64,000 nucleotides of DNA, taken from Bacteroidales bacterium (GTDB taxonomy: Bacteria > Bacteroidota > Bacteroidia > Bacteroidales > UBA932). Position numbers and translations under genes: made by a program. Of this stretch, positions 9,266 to 50,373 are shown piece by piece; position 1 is the stretch's first letter, and every line of letters begins with the position of its first letter. Below the pieces are notes generated by a model. It saw only the letters and a list, made by a program, of their open reading frames with translations, had not been told where the DNA came from and made no database searches. The stretch lies in NCBI GenBank assembly GCA_017445015.1, contig JAFSVL010000080.1, positions 17,978-81,977 on the forward strand, in the 5' to 3' direction.

Positions 9266-9331
9266 GACCTGCCCTACGGGCACTTGTTGCTACGCAACCC
9301 TATCCGGGTAAAGGTGCCCGCAGGGCAGGTC
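9266..9331 (+). repeat. Structured repeat, family 1 copy A (conserved loop in an 18-bp stem)
   Basis: Arms 9266-9283 and 9314-9331 pair at 17 of 18 positions, with A-runs on the left and T-runs on the right, so it can act as a terminator in either direction. The 30-nt loop holds GTTGC-TAC-GCAAC followed by CCCTATCCGGG, the core shared with the copies at 22621-22691 and 50304-50373. It lies in the 102-bp gap between the MBOAT gene and its SGNH partner. Confidence 0.85.
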
Positions 9332-9346
9332 GTTTTTTAAGGGCAT

Positions 9347-10774
9347 TTAGAATTGGAAATAGAGGAAACGGGAATCATTGCCGATGCCATAGTGTCCGAG
9401 CAGGACGAGCAAAAGCAGCGCGAAGACCGCACAGAGCACCCGTACCGCCGGAGGCTGGCGCAGGAATTTTGCGGCGAGGGCCCCGCCCCTGCGTTCCCAC
9501 AGCACTTCCTGGAGCGCGAGCAGCAGCACGAGCGCGCAGGCGAAAATCAGTTCCGTACGGCCCAGGCCATAAGCCGGGAGCCCGGAAAAACCGTCAAAAC
9601 CAATCGCGGAAAACATCTTCATCGCGGCGGGGAAGTCCGGGGCCCGGAACAGGATCAGGGACAGCGCCCAGAGTCCGGAAACCAGGGTGATTTTCAGGGG
9701 CCGGAAGCCGTTTATGCGGCTCATCGGACGGTCCAGCGTTACCATAAACAAGGCGCAGAGGAAGCCCCAGGCGACAAAAGTCCAGGAGGCGCCATGCCAG
9801 AGGCCGCTGAGCAGGAATACGATAAATACGTTGCAGACCCGGCGTGCCGCGCCTTTGCGGTTGCCGCCCAGCGGGATATACACATAGTCTCCGAACCAGG
9901 AGGAAAGGGAGATGTGCCAGCGCTTCCAGAATTCCTTGAAGGAAGTGGACAGGTACGGCCGGCGGAAGTTGACCATCAGTTCCATCCCGAAGAGTTTGGC
10001 CGAACCGCGGGCGATTTCGGAATAGGCGTAGAAATCGGCATAAAGCTGAACGGCGAAAAGCAGCACCGCCAGCAGGGCCGGGACCCCCGCGAGGCCGTCC
10101 ACGCCCTTCCAGGCGGCATCGACATAGACGGCGACCCGGTCCGCCAGCAGCAGTTTGAGCGAAAGCCCCCAGAGAATCAGGCACAGGCCTTCGACGGCTT
10201 TGCCATAGTCGAATCCGCGCCGGGTGTCAAACTGGGGGAGCAGCCTCTCCGCCCGCTCGATGGGGCCTGCGACGAGTTGCGGGAAGAAACTGACGAAGGC
10301 AAAAAAGCGCAACGGGTTACGCGAGGGCCGGGTGCGGCCGCGATAGACATCGATGGTATAGCCGAGGGCCTGGAAAGTATAGAAACTGATGCCGACGGGA
10401 AGGATAATGTGCAGCGCGGGCGGCGTCCCTTTCCAGCCCAGCAGGGACAGCAGTGCGACGAAACTGTCCACGAAGAAGCCGGCGTATTTGAAATAGGCGA
10501 GTATGCCCAGGTTCACGGCGATATTGAGCGCCGCCCAGCGTTTGCGGGCGGCGCCTTCGCTGCCGTCGATGCGCAGGGCGGTCAGATAACTGGACAGGGA
10601 AGTAAAGGCAATCAGCAGCGCGAAGCGCCAGTCCCAGGCGCCGTAAAAGGCATAACTGGCAACCAGCAGCACGAGATTCTGCCATTCCCCGCGCCGGCTT
10701 TTCATGAGCGGAAGCCAGTACAGGATGAAAACCAGCGGCAGGAACAGTGCGTAGGAAAATGAATTGAACAGCAT
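9347..10774 (-). CDS. MBOAT-family O-acyltransferase (AlgI/DltB-like)
   Basis: The 475-residue polytopic membrane protein has many hydrophobic helices. Family marks include R-P-Y-L-S-T-S-F-K-E-F-W-K-R-W-H-I-S-L (central) and the catalytic-histidine box G-L-W-H-G-A-S-W with His327. A typical N-terminal start, M-L-F-N-S-F-x-Y, supports the ATG at 10774. MBOAT proteins of this group move acyl groups, often acetyl or D-alanyl, across the membrane for O-acylation of exopolysaccharide, peptidoglycan or teichoic acid. With the SGNH-like gene downstream it makes a two-gene acylation cassette. The target polymer cannot be inferred because no polysaccharide biosynthesis genes are adjacent. Confidence 0.92.
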   Translation of the reverse strand: MLFNSFSYALFLPLVFILYWLPLMKSRRGEWQNLVLLVASYAFYGAWDWRFALLIAFTSLSSYLTALRIDGSEGAARKRWAALNIAVNLGILAYFKYAGFFVDSFVALLSLLGWKGTPPALHIILPVGISFYTFQALGYTIDVYRGRTRPSRNPLRFFAFVSFFPQLVAGPIERAERLLPQFDTRRGFDYGKAVEGLCLILWGLSLKLLLADRVAVYVDAAWKGVDGLAGVPALLAVLLFAVQLYADFYAYSEIARGSAKLFGMELMVNFRRPYLSTSFKEFWKRWHISLSSWFGDYVYIPLGGNRKGAARRVCNVFIVFLLSGLWHGASWTFVAWGFLCALFMVTLDRPMSRINGFRPLKITLVSGLWALSLILFRAPDFPAAMKMFSAIGFDGFSGLPAYGLGRTELIFACALVLLLALQEVLWERRGGALAAKFLRQPPAVRVLCAVFALLLLVLLGHYGIGNDSRFLYFQF

Positions 10775-10780
10775 AAATCT

Positions 10781-11449
10781 TTACCTGGCAAACAAGTCCT
10801 CCATGCAAACTTGCGATTGAACGATGCCGCTATGGGCATTCTGCCTGACTCCGTAGGTTGTAATCATTACCAATTGCAGGGCTTTTTTGGACTGGGTGGC
10901 TTCACGAAACACCTCCACCTTTTTTCTCAGTTTTTCCTTGTGGTCCTTATCTATGACGAACTCCCCTGCCGAGAACTTGATTTCACAAATGTTTGTCGTT
11001 CTGTCCCGCCGGTCAATTTTTTTTGAGGCAGGCACATCTATAATTTTCAGATAGCCACTTTGCATTACCGAACAGGGCCTCGTACAAATGGTCAAACTCA
11101 TCCCATAGCGGACCTTTGCTTTTAAAAAAATAGTGTCAATGTTTGTTAAATATGAAAGTTCGTTGTCCAGGAGTTTCAAATAATAGGGAATGCCTCCCAT
11201 GGTCATATAACATTCCACAATGTCATTACGGCTCCAGTGGATACCCCTGGATATCAGGTATTTCTCTGTTTCCTGCAGCGTAAATGGCATCAGGTCATTT
11301 TGCTGGGCGCCATATTCCAAAAGTGCGAGATAGAAGTTCTTGAGTTGGATCTTCTTGGGTTTCTTGTACAATCCTGTGACCTTGAAGTCACGATATCGTT
11401 GTAGTTGTCGAATTTCGTATTTGCGTCCGATAAACAGGTTCTTGTCCAT
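10781..11449 (-). pseudogene. Decayed AAA-type ATP-binding protein (archaeal-type ATPase family common in Bacteroidetes)
   Basis: An open frame of 222 codons exists, but it is a collapsed relic. The N-terminus F-I-G-R-K-x-E-I fits this ATPase family, yet the Walker A segment that should follow is missing. Middle sequence around M-G-G-I-P-Y-Y-L-K resembles the sensor/lid region. After that the matching frame changes: at about 11110-11130 the shifted frame reads K-G-P-L-W-D-E-F-D-H-L-Y-E-A-L-F, consistent with loss of one T from a poly-T run. More than 100 residues then appear deleted before the C-terminal nuclease-like end (I-D-R-R-D-R, C-E-I-K-F-S). Base composition is more AT-rich than the flanks, suggesting acquired DNA. 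Confidence 0.72.
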
Positions 11450-11621
11450 TCAAAATAGTTTCTTGGAGAATAAAGATAGAACATTAATTTGATTTTTTGA
11501 TATTTTAGTGCGGAAAGTTGATGTTTTTTTTTCGTACTTAAAAATAGGCAACCAAATCACGGGATGGTTTCAGGCGGGCGATATTACATTCGGTCCGCTT
11601 GCATTATCGGCCCTGTTTTGG

Positions 11622-11629
11622 TAATTTTG
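11622..11629 (+). promoter_or_regulatory. -7 box TAATTTTG with -33 TTG, for the SIMPL gene
   Basis: TAATTTTG fits TAnnTTTG. TTG at 11599-11601 leaves a 20-bp spacer. The ATG at 11636 begins 6 nt after the box. Confidence 0.65.
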
Positions 11630-11635
11630 TGCTGT

Positions 11636-12334
11636 ATGGAAAAAAGCAGAGTTTGGGCTGCCGCGGCGATAGCTGCGGGGCTGGTGTTCCTGGGGCTGAT
11701 GATACCCCGGGCGGCGAGAATCAACCGCTCATACGAGCGCTTCGTGAGCGTAAAGGGCCTGTGCGAGAGGGAGGTGATGGCAGACAAGGCCATCTGGCCC
11801 ATCCAGTACAAGGTGGCGGGCAACGACCTCGCGACAGTATATGCCGAGCTTGAGGCAAAGAACGCGCTGGTGAAAAAGTTTCTGAAGGAAGGCGGCGTGC
11901 AGGACGGGGAAATCTCCGTGTCGGCCCCCACCCTCTCCGACAAACTGGCCCAGGAATACGGGTCCAACGACAGGGCTTTCCGCTACGTGGCAAAGGAGGT
12001 TATGACAGTCTGCTCGGCCGACGTGGAAAAGGTGCTGGCGCTGATGTCTAGGCAGGGAACCTTGGTGCGCAGCGGCATCGCGCCGGATAACGAATATGGC
12101 AGCCAGCCTGAATTCCTGTTCGAGGGGCTCAACTCGCTGAAGCCGGAAATGATAGAGGAGGCGACGCGCAATGCCCGCGAAGCGGCGCAGAAGTTCGCCG
12201 CCGACTCCCGCAGCAGGCTTGGCAAGTTGCGCCAGGCCGCGCAGGGCAGCTTCTCGATAGAGCCGCGCGATTCCAACACCCCGTACATAAAGCACGTGAG
12301 GGTGGTCACATCCGTGACGTACTATCTCGACTGA
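11636..12334 (+). CDS. SIMPL-domain (DUF541/YggE-like) envelope protein
   Basis: The 232-residue product has one N-terminal hydrophobic segment (about 7-24) that may be a signal anchor. It is followed by a SIMPL/DUF541 domain covering most of the rest. The pattern begins near V-S-V-K-G-L-C-E-R-E-V and continues with K-A-I-W-P-I-Q-Y-K-V. A C-terminal stretch N-A-R-E-A-A-Q-K-F-A is where family members usually have a similar A-R-x-x-A-x-x-x-A helix. Function is poorly defined; E. coli YggE is linked to oxidative stress. The gene looks intact but stands alone among broken genes on both sides. The start is chosen for the signal segment and the -7 box 6 nt upstream. Confidence 0.82.
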   Translation: MEKSRVWAAAAIAAGLVFLGLMIPRAARINRSYERFVSVKGLCEREVMADKAIWPIQYKVAGNDLATVYAELEAKNALVKKFLKEGGVQDGEISVSAPTLSDKLAQEYGSNDRAFRYVAKEVMTVCSADVEKVLALMSRQGTLVRSGIAPDNEYGSQPEFLFEGLNSLKPEMIEEATRNAREAAQKFAADSRSRLGKLRQAAQGSFSIEPRDSNTPYIKHVRVVTSVTYYLD

Positions 12335-12365
12335 GCAATCTGATTTTTTTTGATCTTTTGGTGCG

Positions 12366-12843
12366 TTAAAAATCACTTGTATCTTGTGGTGCACAGGGTT
12401 GGCTTAGTAAGCCAGCTGTGTGAGTATCATGATCATACGGCGCGGGCTTCGAAAGTTGATTGTTCCTGCTAGAAAGGTATTGCGAAGACCTCGGACGCGG
12501 GAGACTTATCAATGAGTCTTTGATGACCATCAGTCCGAAGTTCCGACCCCAATAGGTCGTGTCCAGCTGAATGACGACATGCTTCTCCTTCGCGATTTTC
12601 TGTACATACCGCATGCCCTCCAAATCTCTGGCGATAGTACGGCTGGAGACTTTGTATTTATCTGCAAACTGTTCGAGCGTCTGTTTGCCCTCAATGTAAT
12701 CCGTAATTACCTGAGCCCTATCCCTGCGATTATCCCCGTCGAAACGACGTCCGCAGTCCTTGTATTTATACCGCTGGACACGGCCTCTCAGGCCATTGTG
12801 GACCACGTTTGTGGACCCACAGAAAAAGCATTTTTTTAAGCAT
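12366..12843 (-). pseudogene. Truncated insertion-sequence transposase (zinc-ribbon N-terminal part)
   Basis: This is the N-terminal third of a transposase. A zinc-ribbon (C-F-F-C-G ... K-D-C-G-R-R-F, one expected Cys replaced by Tyr) is followed by a helix-turn-helix-like segment (L-E-Q-F-A-D-K-Y-K-V-S-S-R-T-I-A-R-D-L) and the start of the catalytic domain (Q-L-D-T-T-Y-W-G-R-N-F-G). Homology-like sequence stops after V-I-K-D; the final 45 residues are unrelated and the rest of the DDE domain is absent. The ATG at 12841-12843 is out of frame with the zinc-ribbon by one base, through a run of seven A at 12831-12837. It resembles the IS256-variant zinc-binding transposases of Bacteroidetes; that name is tentative. 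Terminal repeats were not identified. Confidence 0.68.
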
Positions 12844-12909
12844 ATCAGTATGAATGCTGCAAAGATATGAAATTCAGATTATTACAACGATTTCATCACC
12901 CGAAATGTC

Positions 12910-13308
12910 TAATAACCCCAGAGTTATTATGGAGCGGTTGACGACAAGACCGTACTGGACCCGGAGGACGATGTCGCCCATGTGAAACTTGGCGGCAAGT
13001 GGCGTATGCCCACCGATGAGGAGTGGCAGGAGCTGGAAGCCGGGTGCTCGTGGACGGGGATTGTCCAAAATGACGTTGTAGGCGTAAGGGTAACCGCAAA
13101 GAACGGCAACGGCATATTCCTCCCCGCCGCCGGCTACCGGGAAGATACCCATGCCGGCAATGTGGAGTCCAAGGGCTACTACTGGTCTTCATCCCTCTAT
13201 CCCCCTGGCCCGGATTGCGCGATGAGCATATCCTTCGAGAGGAACGGTCACTCCAGGTTCGACGGCGCCCGTTACTTCGGGCACCCGGTCCGTCCCGTTG
13301 CAGAATAA
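12910..13308 (+). pseudogene. C-terminal fragment of a FISUMP-domain lipoprotein gene
   Basis: An open frame without a credible start encodes the last 130 or so residues of a Fibrobacter succinogenes major paralogous (FISUMP) domain. Visible marks are K-T-V-L-D-P-E-D-D, W-R-M-P-T-D-E-E-W-Q-E-L, the L-P-A-A-G-Y-R core, Y-Y-W-S-S-S and the closing V-R-P-V-A-E with its own stop. Signal peptide and upstream domains are missing, and the fragment begins directly next to the transposase relic, as if cut by insertion or deletion. An apparently intact gene of the same broad type lies at 50409-51479. The product is probably not expressed. Confidence 0.72.
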
Positions 13309-13309
13309 C

Positions 13310-13758
13310 TGACCTTACCGGCATCGGCAGGGACTTCGCGATCCATAAAATAAGTACTTTTGAAAAATGGCCTGCGCAGGTAATTTTTTCATTGTTTCTA
13401 AAAGGCCCTGCCTTCGTACAAAATCGTAAAATTTGTTCGGCGACAGGGACCCGGGGGGCCTGCCTTCGTACAAAAAGCCTAAAATCTAACGCAGAGCGGG
13501 ACCTTTGGCCTTTGGGGCCTGCCCGGCAAACGGCAAGGTCCGGCAATCTGGTCAAAAACCCGTAATTTCTTCGGGGTTGCGGGACCTGAGGTCCGGCAAC
13601 CCCTTTGTTTTGGGCCAAAAAAGGACCGGTTGCCGTCCCTGATGGGTATGGGCACTGCCTGTCCGGCCAGTATCATCAGCAAGTTATGATGAAGCACATC
13701 GCGACTAACGCTGCTTCTAACTCGCCATCATGTTTAAGGGGGTAGCAAAGTCTATTTG
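13310..13758. repeat. Gene-free stretch with tandem and nested inverted repeats
   Basis: No credible coding sequence is seen. A CCTGC-GCAGG palindrome flanked by A and T runs (about 13361-13390) leads into the 19-nt motif at 13381-13399. Two tandem units share CCTGCCTTCGTACAAAA (13407-13423 and 13459-13475), spaced 52 bp. Further units each closing on GGGACC follow, then an inverted pair CGGCAACC / GGTTGCCG (about 13590-13640). Bases 13404-13503 recur inverted at 63776-63875 with four differences. Nothing recognisable was found in 13690-13758. Confidence 0.8.
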
Positions 13759-13843
13759 TGCCTCGGATGAGACTCGAACTCACACGGACATTACTGCCCA
13801 AGGGATTTTAAGTCCCTCGTGTCTACCATTCCACCACCAAGGC
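13759..13843 (-). tRNA. tRNA-Leu (anticodon TAA)
   Basis: An 85-nt cloverleaf. The acceptor stem GCCTTGG pairs with CCGAGGC, with discriminator A. The anticodon stem AGGGA/TCCCT encloses C-T-T-A-A-A-A, giving anticodon TAA. There is a long class-II variable arm, and the T-arm contains GTTCGAGTC. CCA is not encoded. A -7 box lies 6 nt upstream of the 5' end. Confidence 0.95.
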
Positions 13844-13849
13844 ATGACG

Positions 13850-13857
13850 CAAAGATA
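13850..13857 (-). promoter_or_regulatory. -7 box TATCTTTG for tRNA-Leu
   Basis: The minus strand reads TATCTTTG, ending 6 nt before the mature tRNA 5' end. It lies 12 bp from the oppositely oriented box of pepP, so the two promoters overlap. Confidence 0.65.
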
Positions 13858-13869
13858 ACAATTAATTCA

Positions 13870-13877
13870 TATCTTTG
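13870..13877 (+). promoter_or_regulatory. -7 box TATCTTTG for pepP
   Basis: A perfect TAnnTTTG box ending 6 nt before the pepP ATG at 13884, predicting a near-leaderless mRNA. No clear -33 TTG was seen. Confidence 0.6.
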
Positions 13878-13883
13878 TATGCT

Positions 13884-15266
13884 ATGTTTGGAAAGGAAGT
13901 CTATGAAGAGCGCCGCAGGGCGCTCCGGGAACGTCTCGCGGGGCAGACGGGCATCGTCCTGTTCCTGGGGAATGCGGAGTCTCCCGCGCAGTATCGGGAC
14001 AATTGCTATAAATGGCGCCAGGACAGCAACTGGCTGTATTTTTTCGGCATCGACGAGCCGCGCTTCGCGGCCATCCTGGATATTGACAACGGGGCGGAGA
14101 CCGTCTATGCCGATGACTTCACCCTCGACGATATCGTCTGGATGGGGCCGATGCCCTCCGTGCAGTCGCTCGCTCAGAAGGCGGGCGCAGAGGCCAGCGC
14201 ACCCTATGCGAAACTCTTCGACGCCGTCCGGGAAGCGCAGGCAAAGGGCCGCTGCGTGCATACGGTGCCGCCTTCGCGCTATTACAACGAAATGCTGCTC
14301 CGGCGCATGGGTATAGACGGGGCTTCCGAGCCGTTGATACGGGCAATCGTATCGCTGCGCCTTGTGAAGGAGCCGCGCGAAATCGCGCTGATCGATGCCG
14401 CCTGCGAACTCGGATACGAGATGCATACCATCGCGCGGAAAGGCATCCGTATCGGCGTAAAGGAGCAGGAAATCGTGGGGGCGATGGAGGCGGTGACGCT
14501 CGCAAAGGGCTGGGGCGTGTCCTTCCCGACCATCCTGACCCAGCATGGCGAAATCTTTCATTGCCACTCGCACGAGGCGCCGGTGGAGGAGGGGAAACTG
14601 ATGGTCATTGACGCGGGTGCCGAGGCCTCGAGCCATTATGCGTCAGATTTTACGCGCACCTATCCTACGGGCGGACGCTATACGCCGCGGCAGCGGGATA
14701 TCTATAGCATCGTCTATGAGTGCAATGAGTATGCGTTCTCTCTGACGGCGCCGGGCGTGGCGTACCGCGACGTGCACATCGCCGTGGCGCAGCGGATGCT
14801 TTCGGGCCTGAAGGACCTCGGGCTGGTCAGCGGAGACCCGGCGGAAATGGCCGCACAGGGTGTCGCAGGCCTGTTTATGCCGCACGGCCTCGGGCACAAT
14901 ATGGGGCTGGACGTACACGATATGGAAGACTTGGGCGAGGACCTGGTGGGGTATGACGACGACCAGACGCGCTCTCCGCTTCCGGGGTTGCATTCGCTGC
15001 GGATGGCCCGCCGTCTGGTCCCCGGACATGTGATAACGGACGAGCCGGGGATCTATTTCATCCCGGCGCTGATTGCCGCCTGGAAAAAGGAAAAACGCGA
15101 CGGCGGCCGCGTGAATTACGCAAAACTGGAAAAGGAATATCTCGATTTCGGCGGAATCCGTGTGGAGGATGACGTGCTGGTGACGGCGGACGGGGCCCGG
15201 AGGCTGGGTCCGCGCCGCCTGCCCGCATCGCCGGATGAAGTGGAAGAAGCCATGAAAAACGATTGA
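13884..15266 (+). CDS. pepP: Xaa-Pro aminopeptidase (aminopeptidase P, M24B)
   Basis: The enzyme removes N-terminal residues that precede proline. The 460-residue product has an N-terminal creatinase-like domain (about 1-165) and a C-terminal pita-bread domain. The five dimanganese ligands are visible: Asp243 (V-I-D-A-G), Asp255 (S-D-F-T-R), His338 (H-G-L-G-H-N-M-G), Glu387 (D-E-P-G-I-Y-F) and Glu428 (R-V-E-D-D). Length and order match the family. The ATG at 13884 is used because it follows the -7 box by 6 nt and nothing conserved lies upstream. The stop is 2 bp before the fabG ATG, so the two are probably co-transcribed. Confidence 0.95.
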   Translation: MFGKEVYEERRRALRERLAGQTGIVLFLGNAESPAQYRDNCYKWRQDSNWLYFFGIDEPRFAAILDIDNGAETVYADDFTLDDIVWMGPMPSVQSLAQKAGAEASAPYAKLFDAVREAQAKGRCVHTVPPSRYYNEMLLRRMGIDGASEPLIRAIVSLRLVKEPREIALIDAACELGYEMHTIARKGIRIGVKEQEIVGAMEAVTLAKGWGVSFPTILTQHGEIFHCHSHEAPVEEGKLMVIDAGAEASSHYASDFTRTYPTGGRYTPRQRDIYSIVYECNEYAFSLTAPGVAYRDVHIAVAQRMLSGLKDLGLVSGDPAEMAAQGVAGLFMPHGLGHNMGLDVHDMEDLGEDLVGYDDDQTRSPLPGLHSLRMARRLVPGHVITDEPGIYFIPALIAAWKKEKRDGGRVNYAKLEKEYLDFGGIRVEDDVLVTADGARRLGPRRLPASPDEVEEAMKND

Positions 15267-15268
15267 GT

Positions 15269-16006
15269 ATGGGACTTTTGGATGGAAAAGTGGCGCTGAT
15301 TACGGGCGCGTCGCGCGGCATTGGCAGGGCCATTGCGCTGAAATTCGCTTCGGAGGGGGCGGATGTCGCCTTTACGGATATTTCCGTCGATGAAAATACG
15401 CTGGCGGAGTTGCGGGCTTTCGGACATCGGGCAGAGGCTTACCGGTCTGATGCGTCCGATTTTGCGCAGGCGCACGAGGTGGTTGCAAAGGTAGCCGAAG
15501 CCTTCGGCGGTATCGATATCCTGGTGAACAATGCGGGAATTACCCGCGATACGCTCCTGCTCCGCATGGACGAAAGCCAGTGGGATGATGTGATCGGCGT
15601 GAATCTCAAATCTGCGTTCAATTTCGTTCATGCGGTGGCTCCGCTCATGGCCCGCAGGCGCAGCGGAAGCATCATCTCGCTGTCCTCGGTGGTCGGGATG
15701 CACGGGAACGCGGGACAGAGCAATTATTCGGCGTCGAAGGCGGGACTTATCGGCCTTACCAAATCCGCGGCCAAGGAATTCGGTGCCCGCGGCGTGAGGG
15801 CCAACTGTATTGCGCCGGGGTTCATCCGCTCGACGATGACGGAGGCCGTACCCGAGGAAATCCGTCAGAATTGGGTGAAAACCATTCCGATGCGGCGGGA
15901 GGGGACGCCGGAGGATGTGGCGGGCGTCGCCCTGTTCCTTGCCAGCGACCTTTCCGCCTATGTCACGGGGCAGGTGGTGAACTGCTGCGGCGGGATGGGA
16001 TGCTGA
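15269..16006 (+). CDS. fabG: 3-oxoacyl-[acyl-carrier-protein] reductase
   Basis: FabG uses NADPH to reduce 3-oxoacyl-ACP in each round of fatty-acid elongation in the cytoplasm. The 245-residue product is a classical short-chain dehydrogenase: nucleotide motif T-G-A-S-R-G-I-G (13-20), N-N-A-G, and a catalytic Ser-Tyr-Lys set in L-S-S-V-V-G ... Y-S-A-S-K. The A-P-G-F-I segment and an ending like G-G-M resemble true FabG proteins rather than other SDRs. No acpP or fabF is next to it, so a role in a side pathway remains possible. The ATG at 15269 is preferred over a TTG six bases upstream. It overlaps comF by 7 bases. Confidence 0.9.
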   Translation: MGLLDGKVALITGASRGIGRAIALKFASEGADVAFTDISVDENTLAELRAFGHRAEAYRSDASDFAQAHEVVAKVAEAFGGIDILVNNAGITRDTLLLRMDESQWDDVIGVNLKSAFNFVHAVAPLMARRRSGSIISLSSVVGMHGNAGQSNYSASKAGLIGLTKSAAKEFGARGVRANCIAPGFIRSTMTEAVPEEIRQNWVKTIPMRREGTPEDVAGVALFLASDLSAYVTGQVVNCCGGMGC

Positions 16007-17937: not shown

Positions 17938-17945
17938 ATCTGCGT

Positions 17946-17953
17946 CAAAGATA
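17946..17953 (-). promoter_or_regulatory. -7 box TATCTTTG for the aminotransferase gene
   Basis: A perfect box on the minus strand lies in the 23-bp gap after yidD and ends 8 nt before the ATG at 17937. The gene therefore probably has its own transcript besides any read-through from rnpA-yidD. Confidence 0.6.
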
Positions 17954-17960
17954 CATTTTT

Positions 17961-18221
17961 TTACGGAACAGGGTCGTACCCGCTGCCGCCGCCGGGATGG
18001 CAGCGGAGGATGCGCTTCAGCGAAAGCCAGCCGCCCTTGAGGGGACCGTATTTGCGGAAGGCCTCCAGTGCGTATTGCGAACAGGTAGGCGTAAAACGGC
18101 ACGACGGGGGCGTGAGCGGCGAGATGCACAACTGATAGAAGCGGATCAGCAGGATAAACGGCGCGCTGAGCACCCGTTTCGCGATGTCGGCGGCGCGGCC
18201 GGTTTTCACGGCCGGCTGCAT
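17961..18221 (-). CDS. yidD: Membrane protein insertion efficiency factor YidD
   Basis: An 86-residue small protein with the YidD signature: an amphipathic N-terminal helix, Y-Q-L-C-I-S-P-L, the cysteine-containing C-R-F-x-P-T-C-S-Q-Y box, and [17 protein letters not shown] at the end. YidD assists YidC-dependent insertion of inner-membrane proteins. It overlaps rnpA by 16 bases on the same strand, the order found across bacteria (rnpA-yidD). Confidence 0.95.
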
Positions 18222-18568: not shown

Positions 18569-18576
18569 ACACAGTA

Positions 18577-20012: not shown

Positions 20013-20020
20013 ATTTTCTC

Positions 20021-20365: not shown

Positions 20366-20372
20366 AACGGGA

Positions 20373-20380
20373 CAAAGATA
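20373..20380 (-). promoter_or_regulatory. -7 box TATCTTTG for the SUI1 gene
   Basis: The box is placed in the 17-bp gap between pgk and SUI1, 7 nt before the ATG at 20365 and only 2 bp after the pgk stop codon. Confidence 0.65.
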
Positions 20381-20382
20381 CA

Positions 20383-21636: not shown

Positions 21637-21674
21637 AATACGTATATTTTAATTTGTCGTTTTCACCAATCCCG

Positions 21675-21682: not shown

Positions 21683-21695
21683 CGAAAAATCTGCA

Positions 21696-21703: not shown

Positions 21704-21707
21704 CGCC

Positions 21708-22655
21708 ATGGCAGAATTCCCATCGAAAAACTGGCAGGATTACGAACTGCTCGACAGCGGCTGCGGCGAAAAACTGGAGCGCTTCGGCCGGACGGTCCTC
21801 TGCCGCCCGGAGCCCAAGGCGCTCTGGGACAAAAGCCTTTCGCAAAAGGAATGGGACCGGCTCTGCCATATCCGCTTCAAATCCGGTGCCGGCTTCGGAA
21901 AAGCCGGGAAAGAGGACAGCGGGACCTGGGAGCGCCTGAAAAAATCCGACGACCAATGGTTTATCCGTTATGACGGGGTGGAGGAAGGGCTGAAACTGAA
22001 CCTGCGCCTGGGGCTGACCGCCTTCAAGCATGTGGGCGTATTCCCCGAGCAGGCACCGAACTGGAACTGGATCTATCACGCCGTCCGCGGGCTTGTCCCG
22101 GAGGGTGCCGGGTCCGGGACCGCGCCGAAGGTATTGAACCTCTTCGCATATACCGGGGCGGCGTCCCTTGCCGCAAAGGCCGCGGGCGCCGATGTGACCC
22201 ACCTCGATTCCGTGCGGCAGGTCGTCACCTGGGCCCGCGGGAACATGGAAAGTTCCGGTCTCGACGGCATCCGCTGGGTCGTCGAGGACGCGATGAAATT
22301 CGTAAAACGCGAGATTCGGCGCGGCAACCGCTATGACGGCATCATCCTCGACCCTCCGGCATACGGACATGGACCGGACGGAGAGAAATGGAAACTCGAC
22401 GAATGCCTCTTCGATATGCTGAAAGGGGTAGCGGACCTGCTTGGCGAGCACGCCTTCGTGGTGCTGAACCTTTATTCCAACGGCTATTCGGCCCTGCTCG
22501 GCGAGACGCTGGTGCGACAGGCCTTCGGGTCAGGAGGGAAAATGGAGAGCGGGGAGCTCGCCCTGCTTGACCGCTTCGGCAAAGCCCTCCCGCTCAGCAT
22601 ATTCGTCCGTTTTCAGCTGAAGGACGAAGGCTTCTGCGACCATTTACCCGGATAG
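21708..22655 (+). CDS. Class I SAM-dependent methyltransferase, RlmI/COG1092-like (rRNA)
   Basis: The 315-residue product matches the 23S rRNA m5C methyltransferase-like group. N-terminal substrate strands are followed by F-K-H-V-G-V-F-P-E-Q-A-x-N-W, the SAM loop V-L-N-L-F-A-Y-T-G-A-A-S-L, an acidic ribose-binding H-L-D-S-V and the catalytic D-P-P-A-Y-G. It lacks the PUA domain of E. coli RlmI, as Bacteroidetes members often do. The target base is therefore not certain. The start follows a -7 box by 4 nt. The last 35 bases of the gene form the left arm of a structured repeat. Confidence 0.88.
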   Translation: MAEFPSKNWQDYELLDSGCGEKLERFGRTVLCRPEPKALWDKSLSQKEWDRLCHIRFKSGAGFGKAGKEDSGTWERLKKSDDQWFIRYDGVEEGLKLNLRLGLTAFKHVGVFPEQAPNWNWIYHAVRGLVPEGAGSGTAPKVLNLFAYTGAASLAAKAAGADVTHLDSVRQVVTWARGNMESSGLDGIRWVVEDAMKFVKREIRRGNRYDGIILDPPAYGHGPDGEKWKLDECLFDMLKGVADLLGEHAFVVLNLYSNGYSALLGETLVRQAFGSGGKMESGELALLDRFGKALPLSIFVRFQLKDEGFCDHLPG

Positions 22656-22691
22656 GGTTGCGGAGCAACAGGGAGCGGAAGTCTTCGTCCT
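22621..22691 (-). repeat. Structured repeat, family 1 copy B (conserved loop in a 17-bp stem)
   Basis: Arms 22621-22637 and 22675-22691 can pair at all 17 positions, two as G-U. The 37-nt loop, read on the minus strand, differs from the loop of the copy at 50304-50373 at two positions, whereas the stems are unrelated. The left arm and part of the loop are coding sequence of the methyltransferase. It lies between two convergent gene ends. Confidence 0.85.
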
Positions 22692-22701
22692 TCCGCCGGC
22701 G

Positions 22702-25700
22702 CTAACTTCCGGCAATTTGCTTGACCGTGTCGCTGAAAGCGTCTTCAAGGTCGGCGGCCATCTTCTCGCCGTCGGGCGAGAGTCCCGCCTTCGCCATGTC
22801 CCGGAGGGTGTCGGAAAGCAGATAGATATAATTTCCGCAGGTCTCCACTTCGTCCTTGGCATAATCATAGAACTCGAGATAGAAGCGCGCATCGGCAAGC
22901 AGGTTGCGTGAAAGTTCTTCCGCGAGCGCGCCGGCATCTTCCCTGCGCCCGAGCATATAGTAGAGGCGGATCATCTCCACCACCATGTAATTATTGGTGG
23001 TAAAGCCGGCAGGAATGGCATCCAGCGGATAATGGCGCATCACCTCGCAGCATTTATCCAGCATTTCGGCGGCCCGTTCCCTCTGGCCGGCCTTGAGGAA
23101 GGCCTTGGCACAGTTCACGAACACCATCCGCACCGACATCACGCCCAGATGGGTGTACATGTTCTGGTAGTCGATGAAATAATTGCCCGCACCGAGGGCG
23201 TCCCAGCGGAACGTCTGCGTCATCAGGGCATAGAGCCTGTCGGTATTCACATAGCCGATATCCGTACTCTTGACCGTATTGCGCCAGGGCACCAGCAGAT
23301 AGGAATAGCCCTGGAATTCCAGATAGTTCCGCAGCCCGACGGCCAGGTCCCCGCCCATGTTCAGCATGTGGATGGTGCGGTCCCACTGATAACCCGAGAG
23401 CAGGTCCAGCATGAAAAGTTCGGGCTTGGTGAGATAATTCTTGTTCGGCGAAATCTCCAGCACGATCTCATCCTGGATGCGGTCCGCATCGGCGGCGCAG
23501 ACGATGCCGCTGCGCAGGGCATTGGCCTTGTTCACCGGTACGGCTATCTTGCGCGAACAGAGATAATCCATGCCGCGGTACTTGAGTTTGGGATTGCGGA
23601 AGACCGCCATCACCTCGCCGATCGGCATGACCTCGTTTTTGCTGTCGTTGATCAGCACATATTCATTCGTGCCGTAAAGGTATTGTTCGGGGCCCACCTG
23701 GAGCGGCAGCGGGGCGGACTGGTTCACCGCCCATTTCATCTGGTCGATATGCCAGTCGGTCCCCAGCAGCGAGGTATTGCAGATCCGCACGTCCGGACGC
23801 ACGTCCTCCACCTCCTGCGCATACCATACCGGGAAGGTATCATTGTCTCCGTGGGTGATGAGGATGCCGTTCTTTCCTACCGAATTGAGATAATTCGAGG
23901 CCAGTTCCACCGCGGTGCGGCGGTTGCTGCGGTCGTGATCGTCCCAGTTCTGTGCGGCCATGAGCGCGGGGACGCAGAGGCATGCCAGCGTAAGGGCCGC
24001 CGACATCGCCACGGACTCTTTCTTCTTCAGCAGTACAGGCAGGGCATGCGCCAGCGCCGCCACGGCCAGTCCGCACCAGATGCTGAAGAAATAGAAGGAG
24101 CCCGCATAGGCATAATCGCGCTCCCGCACCTGATAGGGCGGCTGGTTAAGGTAAATCACAATGGCGATGCCCGTCATGAAAAACATCAGGAACACCAGCC
24201 AGCATCCCCGCTTGTCCCGGTCGAACTGGAAGAAAAGCCCCAGCAGGCCGAGGAGCAGCGGCAGGAAATAATAGTGGTTCTTCCCCTTGTTCTTCGCGAG
24301 CAGTTCCGGGGCGTTGCCCTGGTCTCCCAGGCGGTAATTGTCGATGAACCGGATGCCGCTCTCCCAATTGCCGGCAAAGAGGTCTCCGGGCGTCTGGCCG
24401 TGGATCTCGTTCTGGCGTCCGACAAAATTCCACATGAAATAGCGCCAGTACATCCAGTTCAATTGATAGTCGAAGAAAAAGGCGAGATTTTCTCCCATCG
24501 TCGGCTTGCGGTGACGGTCCTTGGTCCGCATCACGCGGCCCTTCATGTACGTTTCATAGAACTTGACGTACTTCTCGTCGCCGCCGTTCCACATCCGCGG
24601 GAACAGCATCTTTCCCGAAGCCTTGTATTCCGCTTCGACGGGGCTGTCCACCTTTACATATTTGCCGTTCAGGGGCGCCCAGTACTTTCCTTCCTTGATT
24701 TCATAGGGCGCATCGAAGAACTGCCCGTAGATGAGCGGGGAACTGCCGTACTGTTCCCGGGAGACATAGCGCACCAGCGTAAAGGCATTGTCCGGCTGGT
24801 ACTCGTTGGTGGGCGTCTTTGCGCAGGAGCGGATAATCACTACGCTGAACACAGAAAATCCGATGAGGATGCAGGTCAGGCACAGCAGCGCCGTATTCCA
24901 GAATACCTTTCCCTTGTTGTAGGTGGAAAAAATGCCCCAGAAGCACAGCGCGAGCACCGCGACCATGAAGAATGCGGCTCCCGTGTTATAGGGCAGCCCC
25001 AGCACATTCACGAAGAACAGGTCGGTATAGGCCGCCATCTTGGGCACATACGGTACGATGATAAAATTCACCACACCCAGGATCAGCACCCCGACAAGGA
25101 AAATCTTGCAAAATTCCCAGAAGGTAAAGGTCCCGTTCTCCCGTTGCCGGTAATAGTACATGAACACCAGCGCGGGAATGGCCAGCAGGTTCAGCAGATG
25201 TACGCCGATGGAAAGGCCCATCAGGAAAGCGATCAGCACGATCCAGCGGTTGGCCCCCCTCTGGTCCGCCACTTCATACCAGCGCGTCATCGCCCAGAAT
25301 ACCAGCGCGGTAAAGAGGGACGACATGGCATACACTTCGCCTTCCACCGCCGAGAACCAGAAGGTGTCCGAGAAGCAATAGACCAGGGCGCCGGTCAGGG
25401 CTGAACCGATGATTGCAAGGGCCTGGCCGGAAGAATAGGTGCCGTCCGCCGCCTTCGGAAGCAGCCGCTTCACGAAAAATACGATGGTCAGGTAAAGGAA
25501 GAAGATGGTCAGCGCCGAGCAGAGGGCGCTCATTGCATTCACCAGTACCGCGGCATGCATATTGTCGCCGAACAGGGTAAAGAAGCGGGCGATAAGCTGG
25601 AACATCGGGTTTCCGGGAGGATGGCCCACCTCCAGCTTGTATGACGATGCGATAAATTCGCCGCAATCCCAGAAAGATGCGGACGGTTCTATCGTCAACA

Positions 25701-25776
25701 GGTAGGTCACGGCCGATACGGCCAGCGCCAGCAGCGCAGCGAGCCTGTTAAAGAGATTGAATTTCTTCTCGGTCAT
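22702..25776 (-). CDS. DUF2723 membrane protein (GT-C glycosyltransferase-like) with C-terminal repeat domain
   Basis: The 1024-residue product starts with a polytopic region (about 1-320) of the DUF2723 family. It shows an early S-F-W-D-C-G-E-F-I box with the acidic residues expected of GT-C catalytic loops, and H-P-P-G-N-P. A long extracytoplasmic segment and further helices (about 500-590) follow. Next come a soluble part with D-N-D-T-F-P-V-W-Y and a C-terminal helical, TPR-like region (about 880-1000). DUF2723 relatives are protein O-mannosyltransferase-like; in Bacteroidetes a role in glycosylation of exported proteins is plausible but unproven. The start at 25776 follows a -7 box by 6 nt. 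Confidence 0.85.
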   Translation of the reverse strand: MTEKKFNLFNRLAALLALAVSAVTYLLTIEPSASFWDCGEFIASSYKLEVGHPPGNPMFQLIARFFTLFGDNMHAAVLVNAMSALCSALTIFFLYLTIVFFVKRLLPKAADGTYSSGQALAIIGSALTGALVYCFSDTFWFSAVEGEVYAMSSLFTALVFWAMTRWYEVADQRGANRWIVLIAFLMGLSIGVHLLNLLAIPALVFMYYYRQRENGTFTFWEFCKIFLVGVLILGVVNFIIVPYVPKMAAYTDLFFVNVLGLPYNTGAAFFMVAVLALCFWGIFSTYNKGKVFWNTALLCLTCILIGFSVFSVVIIRSCAKTPTNEYQPDNAFTLVRYVSREQYGSSPLIYGQFFDAPYEIKEGKYWAPLNGKYVKVDSPVEAEYKASGKMLFPRMWNGGDEKYVKFYETYMKGRVMRTKDRHRKPTMGENLAFFFDYQLNWMYWRYFMWNFVGRQNEIHGQTPGDLFAGNWESGIRFIDNYRLGDQGNAPELLAKNKGKNHYYFLPLLLGLLGLFFQFDRDKRGCWLVFLMFFMTGIAIVIYLNQPPYQVRERDYAYAGSFYFFSIWCGLAVAALAHALPVLLKKKESVAMSAALTLACLCVPALMAAQNWDDHDRSNRRTAVELASNYLNSVGKNGILITHGDNDTFPVWYAQEVEDVRPDVRICNTSLLGTDWHIDQMKWAVNQSAPLPLQVGPEQYLYGTNEYVLINDSKNEVMPIGEVMAVFRNPKLKYRGMDYLCSRKIAVPVNKANALRSGIVCAADADRIQDEIVLEISPNKNYLTKPELFMLDLLSGYQWDRTIHMLNMGGDLAVGLRNYLEFQGYSYLLVPWRNTVKSTDIGYVNTDRLYALMTQTFRWDALGAGNYFIDYQNMYTHLGVMSVRMVFVNCAKAFLKAGQRERAAEMLDKCCEVMRHYPLDAIPAGFTTNNYMVVEMIRLYYMLGRREDAGALAEELSRNLLADARFYLEFYDYAKDEVETCGNYIYLLSDTLRDMAKAGLSPDGEKMAADLEDAFSDTVKQIAGS

Positions 25777-46152: not shown

Positions 46153-47375
46153 TCTTCCTTGAGCCTGGGGGCGGGGATTTGGTCCACGAGGAAATCCTCG
46201 GCGGAATTGTTCGTATCGCGGTAAAAGGCAATGCCGTTTTCAACGCTTTCGAGCCGCCGCGTAATGCATTTGCCCGAATAGTGCGCCGATGTCATGATGG
46301 CCGACGAGGCGTCCACCTTCACGGGCAGGCGCTTGACGGACTGCGCGGGGCTGTCAGAGCAGTCCACGCCGTCCAGGATCCAGGCAGCGGCGATATGCCG
46401 GTAACGGGTGCCGGAACTTTCTCCGGGGGCATAACGCTCCCAGAGCGCGGCGTTGTCCATATAGTGCCGGAAGCCGCCTTCGGGTTTGAACAGCACCACG
46501 GAAGGGGAGTGGATGGAAAGGGCCCAGGCGGTGCCCTGACCGGTCATATACATCGTCATCGGCGTAACTCCCGCGGCGATTTCGTGGCCCGGAAGGGTGG
46601 CGTCATAGCAGCCGAAATGCGCGCGCTCCAGCTGCAGGCCGGAGGTGCAGCGGCCGCGGTGGTCCACGGCGGCGTGGGTGGCGACGACCGCACTTTCCCC
46701 CGGCGCAAGGGGATAGGTCTGTCCGTCGCCGGGGAAGACCCAGATCATCTGGAAGACGGGAATGGTGTCCCGGCCCGCCCAGGCATTGCTGCCGGTGGTG
46801 GAATTGGCCGGATAAAGCGTGGCGATGCAGAGGGAATCCAGGTACATCGTCTTGCCCTTTGCGCCGGTATTGTTGTAGATTTCCAGATAGCGATCCTTGG
46901 TGTAGGCCGCGCCTTCGAGCGTCGAGCAGCCGTGGTAGTAAATTTCACGGAAGACCAGTTCCCCGGGGACGGTAATGTTGAGGGGAATGTCCAGTTGTGC
47001 GGGAACGAAATGTCCCGCTTCGTCCACGATACCCTCGCGCGCCAGCAGGAAATCCGCGACGCCGCCGTTCGCGGAAATGTGCGTATCGGGGAAGTACGCC
47101 GATGCGGTAATCCCGTACCGGCCCGGCTGAAGTTCCAGGGCCGCGCGGCCTTCCGCATCCGGATGGACCGTGTAGGAGAAGGGCATTTCCTTGTTCTGGA
47201 CCGTCACGCGCACGGCGGTAAGGTCGATTTCGCCGCCCGCTTCCAGCAGGAGCTGCACGCTGAGCGCCGCCGCCCCGTGCGCTTCCGTCTTGTCGGAGAG
47301 CGTGCTCTGCAGGCAGCCGGCCGCACAGACCAGGGCCGCTGCAAGCAAGACAATATGCAGGAGCGCGCGTTTCAT
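46149..47375 (-). CDS. DUF4876 lipoprotein
   Basis: The 408-residue product has a lipoprotein signal ending near Cys21. The N-terminal region (about 25-120) is a carboxypeptidase-like beta sandwich (V-R-V-T-V-Q-N-K-E; G-R-Y-G-I-T-A-S-A). The DUF4876 part follows, with E-I-Y-Y-H-G, R-Y-L-E-I-Y-N-N-T and a late N-S-A-E-D-F. These lipoproteins appear with a TonB-dependent receptor and a barrel protein and are thought to be surface partners of the receptor; the ligand is unknown. The start overlaps the receptor stop (ATGA). Confidence 0.78.
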   Translation of the reverse strand: MKRALLHIVLLAAALVCAAGCLQSTLSDKTEAHGAAALSVQLLLEAGGEIDLTAVRVTVQNKEMPFSYTVHPDAEGRAALELQPGRYGITASAYFPDTHISANGGVADFLLAREGIVDEAGHFVPAQLDIPLNITVPGELVFREIYYHGCSTLEGAAYTKDRYLEIYNNTGAKGKTMYLDSLCIATLYPANSTTGSNAWAGRDTIPVFQMIWVFPGDGQTYPLAPGESAVVATHAAVDHRGRCTSGLQLERAHFGCYDATLPGHEIAAGVTPMTMYMTGQGTAWALSIHSPSVVLFKPEGGFRHYMDNAALWERYAPGESSGTRYRHIAAAWILDGVDCSDSPAQSVKRLPVKVDASSAIMTSAHYSGKCITRRLESVENGIAFYRDTNNSAEDFLVDQIPAPRLKEE

Positions 47376-50272
47376 CGGATGGTGAATTTGACTTCGGCCC
47401 CGAAGTAAATGGGGCTGTTCTTGTCTGCGGGATAGCCGGTGACCGAATTCTTGACGCGGCCCTTCAGGTTCAGGAAGTTGTTGGCGTAGAAGGACACGGT
47501 GGCCCATTTCATCTCCTTGGTGAGGCGCAGGTTCAGCGTCCCGTAGGGGGGATAGCCCTGCGTAAGGTAATAGGTGGCGGTGTTGGTGCTCAGGATCAGG
47601 TCCCGGTAGCGGGGGTCGCGCTCCATTTCCCGGGTAAAGGGAACGGTCCGGCCCGTGCGGTCCATGATGGAAACGGGATTGATGAGTTTGGTGTGCCGTG
47701 TATCCGCAAGGGCTGCGGCGCCGGAAATGCGGTTTCCCGCCTCGTTGTAGAAATAGGGCAGGGAACGGCCCTCGTACAGGGACGATGCGCTCGTGCGGTC
47801 CAGGAACACCATCTGCGCGGTGAGCGTCACCACCATTGCGATGGAGGGAATGTGCGTGACGATGCGCAGGTTGGCATTGATCCGTTCGCGGACGCTGGCG
47901 TTGGAAGTCCCGGTGCCGCCGGCGTAAAATCCGATGTAGGGGTAACTCCGCCCGCCCTGGCTGGACCCGTAAAGCCGGCCCTGGAGCGCGGTGCTGCGGG
48001 TATCCATCCATTGCCAGGCCCCACTGAGGCTTATGGTGGTGTGGAGCGGTTTGATGGTAGGGAATTCGAGGGTCAGTTCCACCCCGCGCTTGTGGACCGA
48101 GGTCCCGTTGCATGGCACGCTGAAGGCGATGAAGGTGGTGTCGCTGATGGAGGGCAGCGGATCTTCCCCGTTCATTACGCCGTTTTCCGTGTAAACGGGT
48201 TTTTCGCCCGAAGGAAGCACTTGTTGCGACGGCATTCCGTTTTGCCAGGTATAGCCGTAGCGGCGGTACACCATCGGCGCATAATGCGTGGCGAATCCGT
48301 AACCGCCGGTCATGTTTTCGTCATAAAAGACGAGCGAACCGCTCATTTTGCCCTGGTCGAATTCGATGCCGGCTTCCCAGTTGACGGATTTTTGGAGCTG
48401 TAACTGCGGATTGACCGTTTCCTGCCGTGCGGTGGTCAGCACCGAAAGTCCGTAGCCGCCGCCGTCGAAATCATTGTACGCGAAGGAAACCATGTCCTTC
48501 CAGGCCGGTTCCGGGTAGAGATAGAGCATCGAGGGCATCTTGCAACTGATGCCCCATCCGCCCCGAATGCTCAGTTCCCGCCAGCCTGTATTTTTGCGGA
48601 TAATGTTGAGCCTGAGGTTGGTGCGGGGCTCCAGCGCGGTGAAATTCCGGGTGTCGATGCCGCTTGCCGCAATGCCGCCGAAACGCAGTCCCGCCTGCAG
48701 TTCGATGCTCGAAATCCAGAAGCGGTATTCGAGTTTCTCCTCGGCGAAAACGGTCATGCGGTGCAGCAGGGGAATGTCGGAGAAACTGCGTTCCCGGTAA
48801 GCCGATGCCGAACCCGGAGAGGGCGGCCGCATGGCGTCAAAACGCTTTCCGGCGCCGCGGTTGCCCAGCAGCGACCATTCGCCGCCCAGGGTGGCCTTGT
48901 GCGATACGGGGCCGTAACGCCCCAGTTGCCGGGCGGTGATTTTGGCCTGTGATTCGAGGGGAAGGCCGTCCACGCTGACGTCTGAATAGTACTGGGGCTC
49001 CGTGAAGGCGCCCGCGAATTCCCCTTCATGCATCGCCGTGGTGAGCGGCGTGTAACCCGCCGAACCCTGATATTTGCGGCGTCTCGAATGCTGGGCGGAT
49101 ACGCCGCCCTTCAGCAGATATTCGATATCCGTGAGCCAGGGCTTGCCGGGCGTCCATTTGCCGCTGAGGTTCAGCCGCACGCCCATGTCGCGTTCGGCGC
49201 TCAGTTCATCCAGGACGAGGTCCGGGTCCGAACGGTCCTGTGCATCGGAAAAATGGGCGCGCAGCCGCGCGTTCAGGCTGAATTTTCCCTTGAAGTTCCC
49301 GGCCCAGCCCGCCTGGAAGTTCAGGCGCTGGTAGGCCGATGCGAGGGTGCGCACGTCGCCGGCGGCGTGTGCGTAATCGAGGTCCAGGTTCAGGACCCCC
49401 TTTTTGTCGCCGAGGGAGAATCCCTTTCCTGCGGCAATCTGCTTGAGTTGCGGGTCGGTCTTGAGGCGCACTGTCAGCGGCGAGGCCCCGGCGCGCGTCT
49501 TGACCACGACGGCCCCGGAGGTCATGTCGCCATAGACGGCGGAAGGGATGCCGCGGATGACCTCTACGGATTCGACGTTGTCCGTGGAGATCTGCCGTAC
49601 GTCCACGCCCAGGCCTGCCGTGGAGGCGGTATTGGCCGCACCCTCGTTCATCACCGTCCCGGAGGAGAGCAGTTGCAGGTTGGCGTCGTTGGAGACATTC
49701 GCCCCGTCCAGGATCAGCGCGGTTCCGGCGATATTCGCCGCCGTGTTCCCGATATCGCGGATGGACAGGCTGTTTACGCCGGTCAGCGAGGGGTTGGCGC
49801 CCATCCCGCCCGGAAGCAGCTGCATCACGTCCTTGAGGCTGGAGGGCTGCACGTGCTCGAGGGCCTGGGCGGAGATTTTCGAGGCGGAAGTAAGTTCCCC
49901 GCCTTCGCGGGCGGTAACCACCACCTCGTCCAGGGTAAGGCTGGAGGCGGCAAGACAGAGCTTCAGTCCGGAAACGTCGCCGCTCATCCTGAGGGTCTTT
50001 TTCAACGGTTCGTAACCGAGCAGGTTCACTTCCAGGGTATAACTGCCCGCCGCAAGTCCCGTGATTTCAAAACTTCCGTCCTGCGCAGATGCCGCCCAGC
50101 GGCCGTTTTCATGGATGAGGATATAGGCCATCGGCACCGGGACGCCGCCTTCCTGTTCCAGGATTTTTCCCCGGATGGAGAAGGTTGGGGGGGCGGCGGC
50201 AAAAAGGCTGCCGCCAGCCGCGTACGACGCGACAAGCAGCAGACTCTTTATGATGGAACCCCGAAGCCTCAT
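47372..50272 (-). CDS. TonB-dependent outer-membrane receptor
   Basis: The 966-residue product has a signal peptide (about 1-25) and a carboxypeptidase-regulatory-like domain (about 30-110). A TonB-box-like T-L-D-E-V-V-V-T-A leads into a plug (about 115-240) with V-E-V-I-R-G-I-P-S-A-V-Y-G-D-M-T-S-G-A-V, then the 22-strand barrel. It imports an unidentified ligand with proton-motive energy. No SusD gene is present; instead it is coupled to DUF4876 and DUF6850 genes. Upstream of it is a structured repeat separating it from the FISUMP lipoprotein gene. Confidence 0.93.
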   Translation of the reverse strand: MRLRGSIIKSLLLVASYAAGGSLFAAAPPTFSIRGKILEQEGGVPVPMAYILIHENGRWAASAQDGSFEITGLAAGSYTLEVNLLGYEPLKKTLRMSGDVSGLKLCLAASSLTLDEVVVTAREGGELTSASKISAQALEHVQPSSLKDVMQLLPGGMGANPSLTGVNSLSIRDIGNTAANIAGTALILDGANVSNDANLQLLSSGTVMNEGAANTASTAGLGVDVRQISTDNVESVEVIRGIPSAVYGDMTSGAVVVKTRAGASPLTVRLKTDPQLKQIAAGKGFSLGDKKGVLNLDLDYAHAAGDVRTLASAYQRLNFQAGWAGNFKGKFSLNARLRAHFSDAQDRSDPDLVLDELSAERDMGVRLNLSGKWTPGKPWLTDIEYLLKGGVSAQHSRRRKYQGSAGYTPLTTAMHEGEFAGAFTEPQYYSDVSVDGLPLESQAKITARQLGRYGPVSHKATLGGEWSLLGNRGAGKRFDAMRPPSPGSASAYRERSFSDIPLLHRMTVFAEEKLEYRFWISSIELQAGLRFGGIAASGIDTRNFTALEPRTNLRLNIIRKNTGWRELSIRGGWGISCKMPSMLYLYPEPAWKDMVSFAYNDFDGGGYGLSVLTTARQETVNPQLQLQKSVNWEAGIEFDQGKMSGSLVFYDENMTGGYGFATHYAPMVYRRYGYTWQNGMPSQQVLPSGEKPVYTENGVMNGEDPLPSISDTTFIAFSVPCNGTSVHKRGVELTLEFPTIKPLHTTISLSGAWQWMDTRSTALQGRLYGSSQGGRSYPYIGFYAGGTGTSNASVRERINANLRIVTHIPSIAMVVTLTAQMVFLDRTSASSLYEGRSLPYFYNEAGNRISGAAALADTRHTKLINPVSIMDRTGRTVPFTREMERDPRYRDLILSTNTATYYLTQGYPPYGTLNLRLTKEMKWATVSFYANNFLNLKGRVKNSVTGYPADKNSPIYFGAEVKFTIR

Positions 50273-50303
50273 AAGGTATCCGTCGCTTCGCGCAGGGTCT
50301 TTT

Positions 50304-50373
50304 GGCAGATGTCCTCTGCTCCCTGTTGCTACGCAACCCTATCCGGGAAAATGGTCGCAGAGGACAACCTGCC
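50304..50373 (+). repeat. Structured repeat, family 1 copy C (conserved loop, two-part stem)
   Basis: Outer arms GGCAG/CTGCC and inner arms GTCCTCTGC (50311-50319)/GCAGAGGAC (50357-50365). The 37-nt loop differs from that of copy B at two positions. A decayed second loop-like piece (TGCGCTACGCGACCCTTTC) follows at about 50384-50402. No T-tract follows in the direction of the flanking genes. Confidence 0.85.

Follow-up and report, generated by a model that had tools for sequence, protein, structure and literature searches.

Mitochondrial double-hairpin and repetitive hairpin elements are mobile and combine conserved loops with variable, compensated stems. The Rickettsia palindromic elements (RPEs) lie in frame in unrelated metabolic genes and encode a conserved peptide (PMC10969869), REP/BIME sequences with RAYT (GTAG and CGTC families) are short dispersed stem-loops that are mostly extragenic with some intragenic copies (PMC3733652), and in Nematomorpha mitochondria long inverted repeats occur within translated genes, both arms encoding conserved protein regions (PMC6649704), each according to the portions of these sources cited here.

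Here we analyzed a hairpin family in a stretch of 64,000 nucleotides from a Bacteroidales bacterium (contig JAFSVL010000080.1 of assembly GCA_017445015.1, positions 17,978–81,977; hereafter the window), together with its copies in related genomes. A literature search on palindromic repeats of Bacteroidetes/Bacteroidales and on palindromic repeats in frame in bacterial genes, covering mostly freely available papers, did not turn up this family.

Three copies in the window

The preliminary description of this DNA had reported three copies of a hairpin with a conserved loop, and all of them were found where it had placed them (Table 1). The window holds three matches to the 23-nt core, and 100 shuffles gave 0.00 on average. 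All three copies lie between genes, with copy B overlapping a gene end so that the stop codon of the methyltransferase gene falls inside it; for the gene downstream of copy A, Pfam and NCBIfam returned nothing at E ≤ 1e-5. By our own reading of the sequence, the stem pairing claimed earlier stood for copy A (17 of 18) and for copy C (9 of 9, plus an outer GGCAG/CTGCC pairing), whereas copy B has, by the same kind of reading, 15 Watson-Crick pairs in 17 rather than the 17 that had been counted. Similarly, the description of the stems as unrelated applies to the outer stems, which are copy-specific, but not to the inner arms, which fall into two main subtypes: GGGCAC/GTGCCC in copy A (type 1) and GCTCCC/GGTCGCAG in both copies B and C (type 2). 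A degenerate second core-like stretch, CTGCGCTACGCGACCCTTTC, was also seen after copy C (window 50384–50402).

Table 1. Positions of the three hairpin copies, their loops and the neighboring genes in the window
Feature	Position	Strand	Remarks
Copy A, type 1, whole hairpin	9266..9331	+	Outer stem 17/18 pairs; fold at locus L011
Copy A, constant 28-nt loop	9286..9313	+	GTTGC-TAC-GCAAC hairpin, then CCTATCCGGG, then TAAAG
Stretch without counterpart in relative G503	9245..9347		Copy A, arms and A/T-rich feet
Copy B, type 2, whole hairpin	22621..22691	-	Between two convergent genes
Copy B, constant 28-nt loop	22642..22669	-	
Copy C, type 2, whole hairpin	50304..50373	+	Between two minus-strand genes
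Copy C, constant 28-nt loop	50325..50352	+	
Gene downstream of copy A	8246..9244	-	Start taken as ATG (our choice)
MBOAT family O-acyltransferase gene	9347..10774	-	PF03062; upstream of copy A
SAM-dependent methyltransferase gene	21708..22655	+	3' end reaching into copy B
TMEM260-like gene	22702..25776	-	PF11028; convergent to the methyltransferase gene
TonB-dependent receptor gene	47372..50272	-	Downstream of copy C
Fib_succ_major domain gene	50409..51479	-	PF09603; upstream of copy C

Copy number and distribution among genomes

The core GCAACCCTATCCGGG has 30 exact occurrences in the genome from which the window was taken (G000; 2,302,284 bases in 93 contigs, 80% complete), and its reversed control has none there; a longer pattern with up to three mismatches was found at 49 places (0 reversed), and a covariance model (R1) gave 52 matches at E ≤ 1, the last few of which were weak. 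The preliminary description would have given up the family if a genome search had returned only its three copies with no covariation; neither turned out to be so, and the number of copies in this genome is about 50 by both pattern (49) and model (52). Both main subtypes recur in the genome. A third subtype was observed there as well (L002 near 1500–1600 and L101 1887–2020), in which some 70 additional nt that themselves form a hairpin (ACTGACG...CGTCAGT) separate the GGG from the right arm. The element also occurs in short tandem arrays, at L400 (about 4034–4197; three copies, 69 nt apart), L425, L004, L091, L125, and L149.

Among genomes of the same genus, R1 detected the family in 25 of 101 at E ≤ 0.01, and a broader model (R2) detected it in 85 of 400 sampled genomes at E ≤ 1e-6, with at most 15 candidates scored per genome and the own genome counted. 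A search of 295 genomes sampled across the order, run with strict filters, returned the own genome and, apart from it, a single match of 22.9 bits; this weak order-level match, in G250, was inspected and rejected as a family member. An exact 15-mer searched in 150 genomes returned the own genome only, a misleading result since the covariance model later found relatives. The scan of named genomes yielded at least 112 stretches with the element, and among the matches listed, 79 of 80 were Bacteroidales or Bacteroidia assemblies, many with titles naming ruminant hosts; one listed match was a Schwartzia MAG, whose copy sits on a 4-kb contig that is probably misbinned. Overall, the family is a dispersed palindromic repeat of one Bacteroidales genus, known mostly from ruminant-gut assemblies, and is apparently non-autonomous.

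Hairpin architecture and covariation

The repeat unit consists of the constant 28-nt loop, inner arms characteristic of the family, and copy-specific outer arms, which vary by locus and in some cases extend beyond 40 nt. The loop is predicted to fold into two small hairpins. For hairpin A, 32 loops chosen for diversity across lineages showed two pairs that switch between T-A and C-G; both-side cells numbered 22, which none of 500 shuffles reached, whereas neither the number of pairs nor that of pair types exceeded shuffles (312 and 487 of 500, respectively). Any base seems to be allowed in the middle of the triloop (TTC 173, TCC 11, TGC 11, TTT 9, TAC 3, and TGG 1; n = 208), in a loop set where part of the invariance was imposed by the search expression.

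The inner stem of type 1 covaries across the genome. In the type-1 structure, built from 17 copies (16 distinct), 95.3% of cells pair, and there are 33 both-side cells, a number that none of 500 shuffles reached and that compares with 2 to 11 in slid versions; the number of pair types in this set was not above shuffles (69 of 500). Taking 127 distinct copies together, the left and right arms of a copy had a median pairing score of 16.1, compared to 3.7 when arms were combined from different copies (600 random pairs). The outer arms are near-unique, as 71 of 76 had no other match at E ≤ 0.01 in the 1.08 Mb searched, where full-length identical matches were counted as self and excluded.

Same-site copies compared across species

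Both flanks matched in 71 same-site pairs, and 52 of these were kept after 19 had been dropped (2 within one genome, 7 in tandem arrays, and 10 with flank matches below 150 nt). In the 10 pairs with 85–97% flank identity, 20.1 of 28 positions paired within a copy vs 19.3 across copies, and the corresponding figures were 22.4 vs 17.4 for the 20 pairs at 78–85% and 22.5 vs 15.8 for the 22 pairs at 65–78% identity, with 11.8 positions pairing between random copies. The 52 pairs represent 28 sites and 68 copies; pairing was better within than across copies at 21 of the sites, and the remaining 7 showed no such excess. Both arms can be seen to have changed at two own-genome sites (L026 and L028), where the copy in the relative G503 has outer arms altered on both sides; L006 and L010 were left out here: an element does occupy the G503 spacer, but the aligned copy has other arms or another subtype and could be a different one. 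Same-site copies from different species thus differ in both arms together, and the preliminary picture of a conserved loop in changing but compensated stems is supported by covariation and by these copies.

The orientation of the loop was inverted at 11 of the 28 shared sites. At one site shared by three species (L130 and L143 vs L157), the element is inverted in one of them. The same-site copies L008 and L395 are of different subtypes, and in several cysS and L164-group pairs the cross pairing is little above random; some same-site copies may be independent insertions and not diverged orthologues.

Empty sites in relatives

The search for relatives of the window stretch covered window positions 7001–27000. 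Out of 44 own-genome copies offered to the empty-site comparison, 20 had both flanks in the G503 stretches examined, and the element was present in G503 at 4 of these sites and absent at 16. The spacer was at most 15 nt long at 9 of the 16 element-free sites, copy A among them; five copies at four loci corresponded to spacers of 38–71 nt, and two, copy B being one, to much longer other sequence. The copy A site measures 103 nt in the own genome vs 4 nt in G503 (L472), with flanks 82% and 80% identical. A comparison of empty sites had been suggested earlier as a way to see whether the bare hairpin exists without its loop; at the copy A site and at the 8 other short G503 spacers, the bare hairpin was absent and so was each of its arms. 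A further clean empty site, lacking the whole palindrome, was found in G083 (L269) relative to G152 (L129) and G020 (L155), with a 2-nt ambiguity only, and the sites of L128 and L119 were not clean when compared with G083. The absence of the element in G503 or G083 could reflect exact loss rather than non-insertion.

Placement between genes and in frame within genes

Gene calls behind the following counts come from our own hexamer scorer rather than a published gene finder. The 44 own-genome copies that were placed lie between two called genes (41), at contig edges (2), or in a weak ORF (1), and the intergenic ones comprise 32 between tandem genes (17 in the same orientation and 15 in the opposite), 6 between convergent, and 3 between divergent genes. 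In sister lineages, many copies fall within long ORFs, including those for prephenate dehydrogenase (tyrA), cysteinyl- and methionyl-tRNA synthetase (cysS and metG), RsmH, DnaX, methionyl-tRNA formyltransferase (fmt), and a PP-loop protein. Of 219 distinct copies, a non-random sample from species that share ancestry, 68 lie inside ORFs with a coding score above 30 by our scorer. Loops free of stop codons in all six frames numbered 54 inside genes and 6 between genes, compared to 14 and 145, respectively, for loops with a stop in at least one frame. Among the in-gene copies, 41 are in sense and 27 in antisense orientation, and one frame prevails in each: 36 of the 41 sense copies encode a SLRDPVRAN-type peptide, and 21 of the 27 antisense copies a FARTGSRSD-type peptide.

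Depending on the species, the same variable loops of CysS and Fmt hold either this family or other palindromes, and it therefore seems that such tolerant sites in proteins are shared by several palindrome families. A second family with a loop near GGTCGCTNAAAANAAGGCCGATGC and locus-specific arms was observed in frame at the same protein sites, in cysS and fmt of G077 and, in a diverged version, in cysS of G069 (L203, L210, and L303). REP-like palindromes (TCATTTCGAGCG..., GTCATTCCCGGC...) were likewise seen in frame in cysS of G057 and G064 (L207 and L211) and in fmt of G054 and G051 (L305 and L306).

Alternative explanations

Base changes compensated across a stem are commonly taken to prove that an RNA structure is under selection, and the strong covariation and constant loop would suit a structured regulatory RNA or attenuator whose fold is kept by selection. 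Several observations make this highly improbable: Rfam at gathering score returned two tRNAs only from the whole window, and a permissive threshold applied to six loci gave one match, below gathering score and outside the element; the even split of tandem copies in the own genome reveals no strand preference; and the element is found in both orientations inside genes, with its loop inverted at 11 of the 28 shared sites. Compensated changes that occur in both orientations, between as well as inside genes, and together with loop inversions point to a mutational origin. An effect on read-through, which had been suggested from the placement at gene ends and inside operons, is not indicated by the even orientation to tandem genes, though it may still occur. 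The preliminary description had also considered a small module inserting into, or capturing, the hairpin loops of terminators already in place, and the A/T tracts at the stem feet of copy A and a few other copies would be in line with it. However, a bare hairpin would have no room at the nine short G503 sites, and at the copy A site the relative has neither loop nor hairpin, which argues that the loop was not dropped into an existing terminator. In addition, a T5 run stands at the stem foot in 5 of 38 own-genome copies vs 7 of 76 nearby control positions (a crude control), which is about equally often, and the GC stem followed by a T run of an intrinsic terminator is not a feature that sets these copies apart. 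Given the empty sites, a terminator-loop module is largely refuted in the own genome, and we find it scarcely credible as an account of the family.

As to how the copies spread, short palindromes in many copies could also represent a REP family mobilized by RAYT (Y1) transposases, whose genes match in 52 of 101 genus genomes, namely in 16 of 24 element-bearing genomes (own genome excluded) vs 36 of 76 without the element by our own row count. In one genome (G020, L152), the element stands some 295 nt past a RAYT-family gene, and in G152, G083, and G020 together the words GTAG and CGTC stand at the stem foot in 10 of 48 (control 2) and 14 of 48 (control 5) copies, each thus in a minority. On the other hand, no Y1 transposase was detected at E ≤ 1e-5 in the own genome (an 80% complete assembly), and GTAG and CGTC do not mark the stem ends of its 38 copies (0 and 4, with 3 and 8 for the reversed-word controls). 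The element was present at 2 of 30 other RAYT loci searched, in neither case adjoining the gene, and the RAYT gene of L152 (578–1950) is flanked on both sides by another palindromic repeat (CCTGGTACGGAA...), so that a RAYT gene flanked by this element was found neither at the 30 loci nor at L152. Mobilization by RAYT is accordingly improbable. In G152, G083, and G020 (L111–L157), 22 of 51 copies have a GTCATNCCCG-type REP no more than 250 nt away, compared to 0 of 44 in the own genome. We looked for a mobilizing enzyme and found none, the RAYT tests giving RAYT no support; no target-site rule was established, and for a comparison with MITEs there are the 2-nt ambiguity at one clean empty site and no autonomous partner among our findings. 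Alternatively, the loop could insert beside host sequence and repair could then copy one flank, inverted, as the second arm, as would agree with the near-unique outer arms. Comparing fmt of G005 with the element-free G037, the 5' flank homology reaches to 16 nt before the core and the 3' homology stops 37 nt after it (33 and 37 nt, respectively, against G038), and against G037 the 5' arm thus resembles native sequence whereas the 3' arm seems to be new; the insert in tyrA of G019 amounts to roughly the loop plus one arm (19 codons) relative to G005, and to 26 codons relative to G037. Such fold-back capture is nonetheless unlikely in our judgment, as neither arm is present at the nine short G503 spacers, and the fmt and cysS comparisons are confounded by mini-palindromes, possibly scars, in G037 and G038. 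With the relatives diverged and element-free sites possibly scarred, the native arm is ambiguous except in fmt of G005 vs G037.

A model of arm rewriting by template switching

The explanation that we consider reasonably probable is a non-autonomous palindromic repeat that resembles RPEs and whose arms are rewritten by template switching. A fixed tip with pairing arms between genes, and relatives in frame in housekeeping genes, looks like spreading, tolerated DNA, and we infer that the family spreads as a selfish repeat, perhaps with an enzyme acting on a single-stranded DNA intermediate that has folded. Once inserted, the stable constant tip would nucleate hairpins on the replication template, where template switching between the arms (quasipalindrome correction) would copy one arm onto the other, and the same switching would invert the spacer. 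The arms could in this way stay complementary while drifting from all other copies, without selection on RNA. The portions of the published work cited here describe template switching as homogenizing the arms of inverted repeats and inverting spacers (PMC8604942), and as creating and maintaining hairpins (PMC8794818); loop inversion and concerted arm change match these reported effects. Several points count against this explanation: complementary arms would equally be expected if selection acted on a folded structure; fmt of G005, with a 5' arm like that of G037 and a 3' arm that is not, favors copying of the host flank at insertion; within-copy and cross pairing hardly differ in the pairs with flank identity of at least 85%; 7 of the 28 sites show no excess of within-copy pairing; and the possible independent insertions, the possible exact losses, and the lack of a mobilizing enzyme and a target-site rule among our findings weigh in the same direction.

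More broadly, it seems to us an evenly balanced proposition that there are loop-constant palindromes whose identity resides in a tiny double-hairpin tip, with arms continually rewritten by template switching, with tips that in several lineages have lost stop codons in all six frames and so permit either orientation inside essential genes, and with coding palindromes in Bacteroidota that are independent of those in Rickettsia. The family offers dozens of shared sites in sister species at which the effects of selection can be told apart from those of template switching, and it would add another bacterial case of palindromes giving peptides to housekeeping enzymes.

Comparison with known systems

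Compared by description only, the mitochondrial hairpin elements are similar to this family in being mobile hairpins and different in belonging to organelle genomes. The coding palindromes of Nematomorpha share with it the presence of long inverted repeats kept inside translated genes, whereas there both arms encode conserved regions, and the portion of the source considered here describes no dispersed constant loop. Like REP/BIME sequences, the copies are short dispersed stem-loops, but they carry no general GTAG tag, conserve the loop rather than the stem, and show no consistent adjacency to RAYT genes. By its features rather than by sequence homology, the family appears to work most like RPEs. 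It differs from them in its phylum, in that the constant part is the 28-nt loop while the arms turn over at each site, and in that the window's own three copies are intergenic and not within genes. The likeness lies in palindromic repeats carried in frame inside unrelated genes, as found for 68 of the 219 copies, and in a conserved encoded peptide, as found in the prevailing sense and antisense frames of these in-gene copies.
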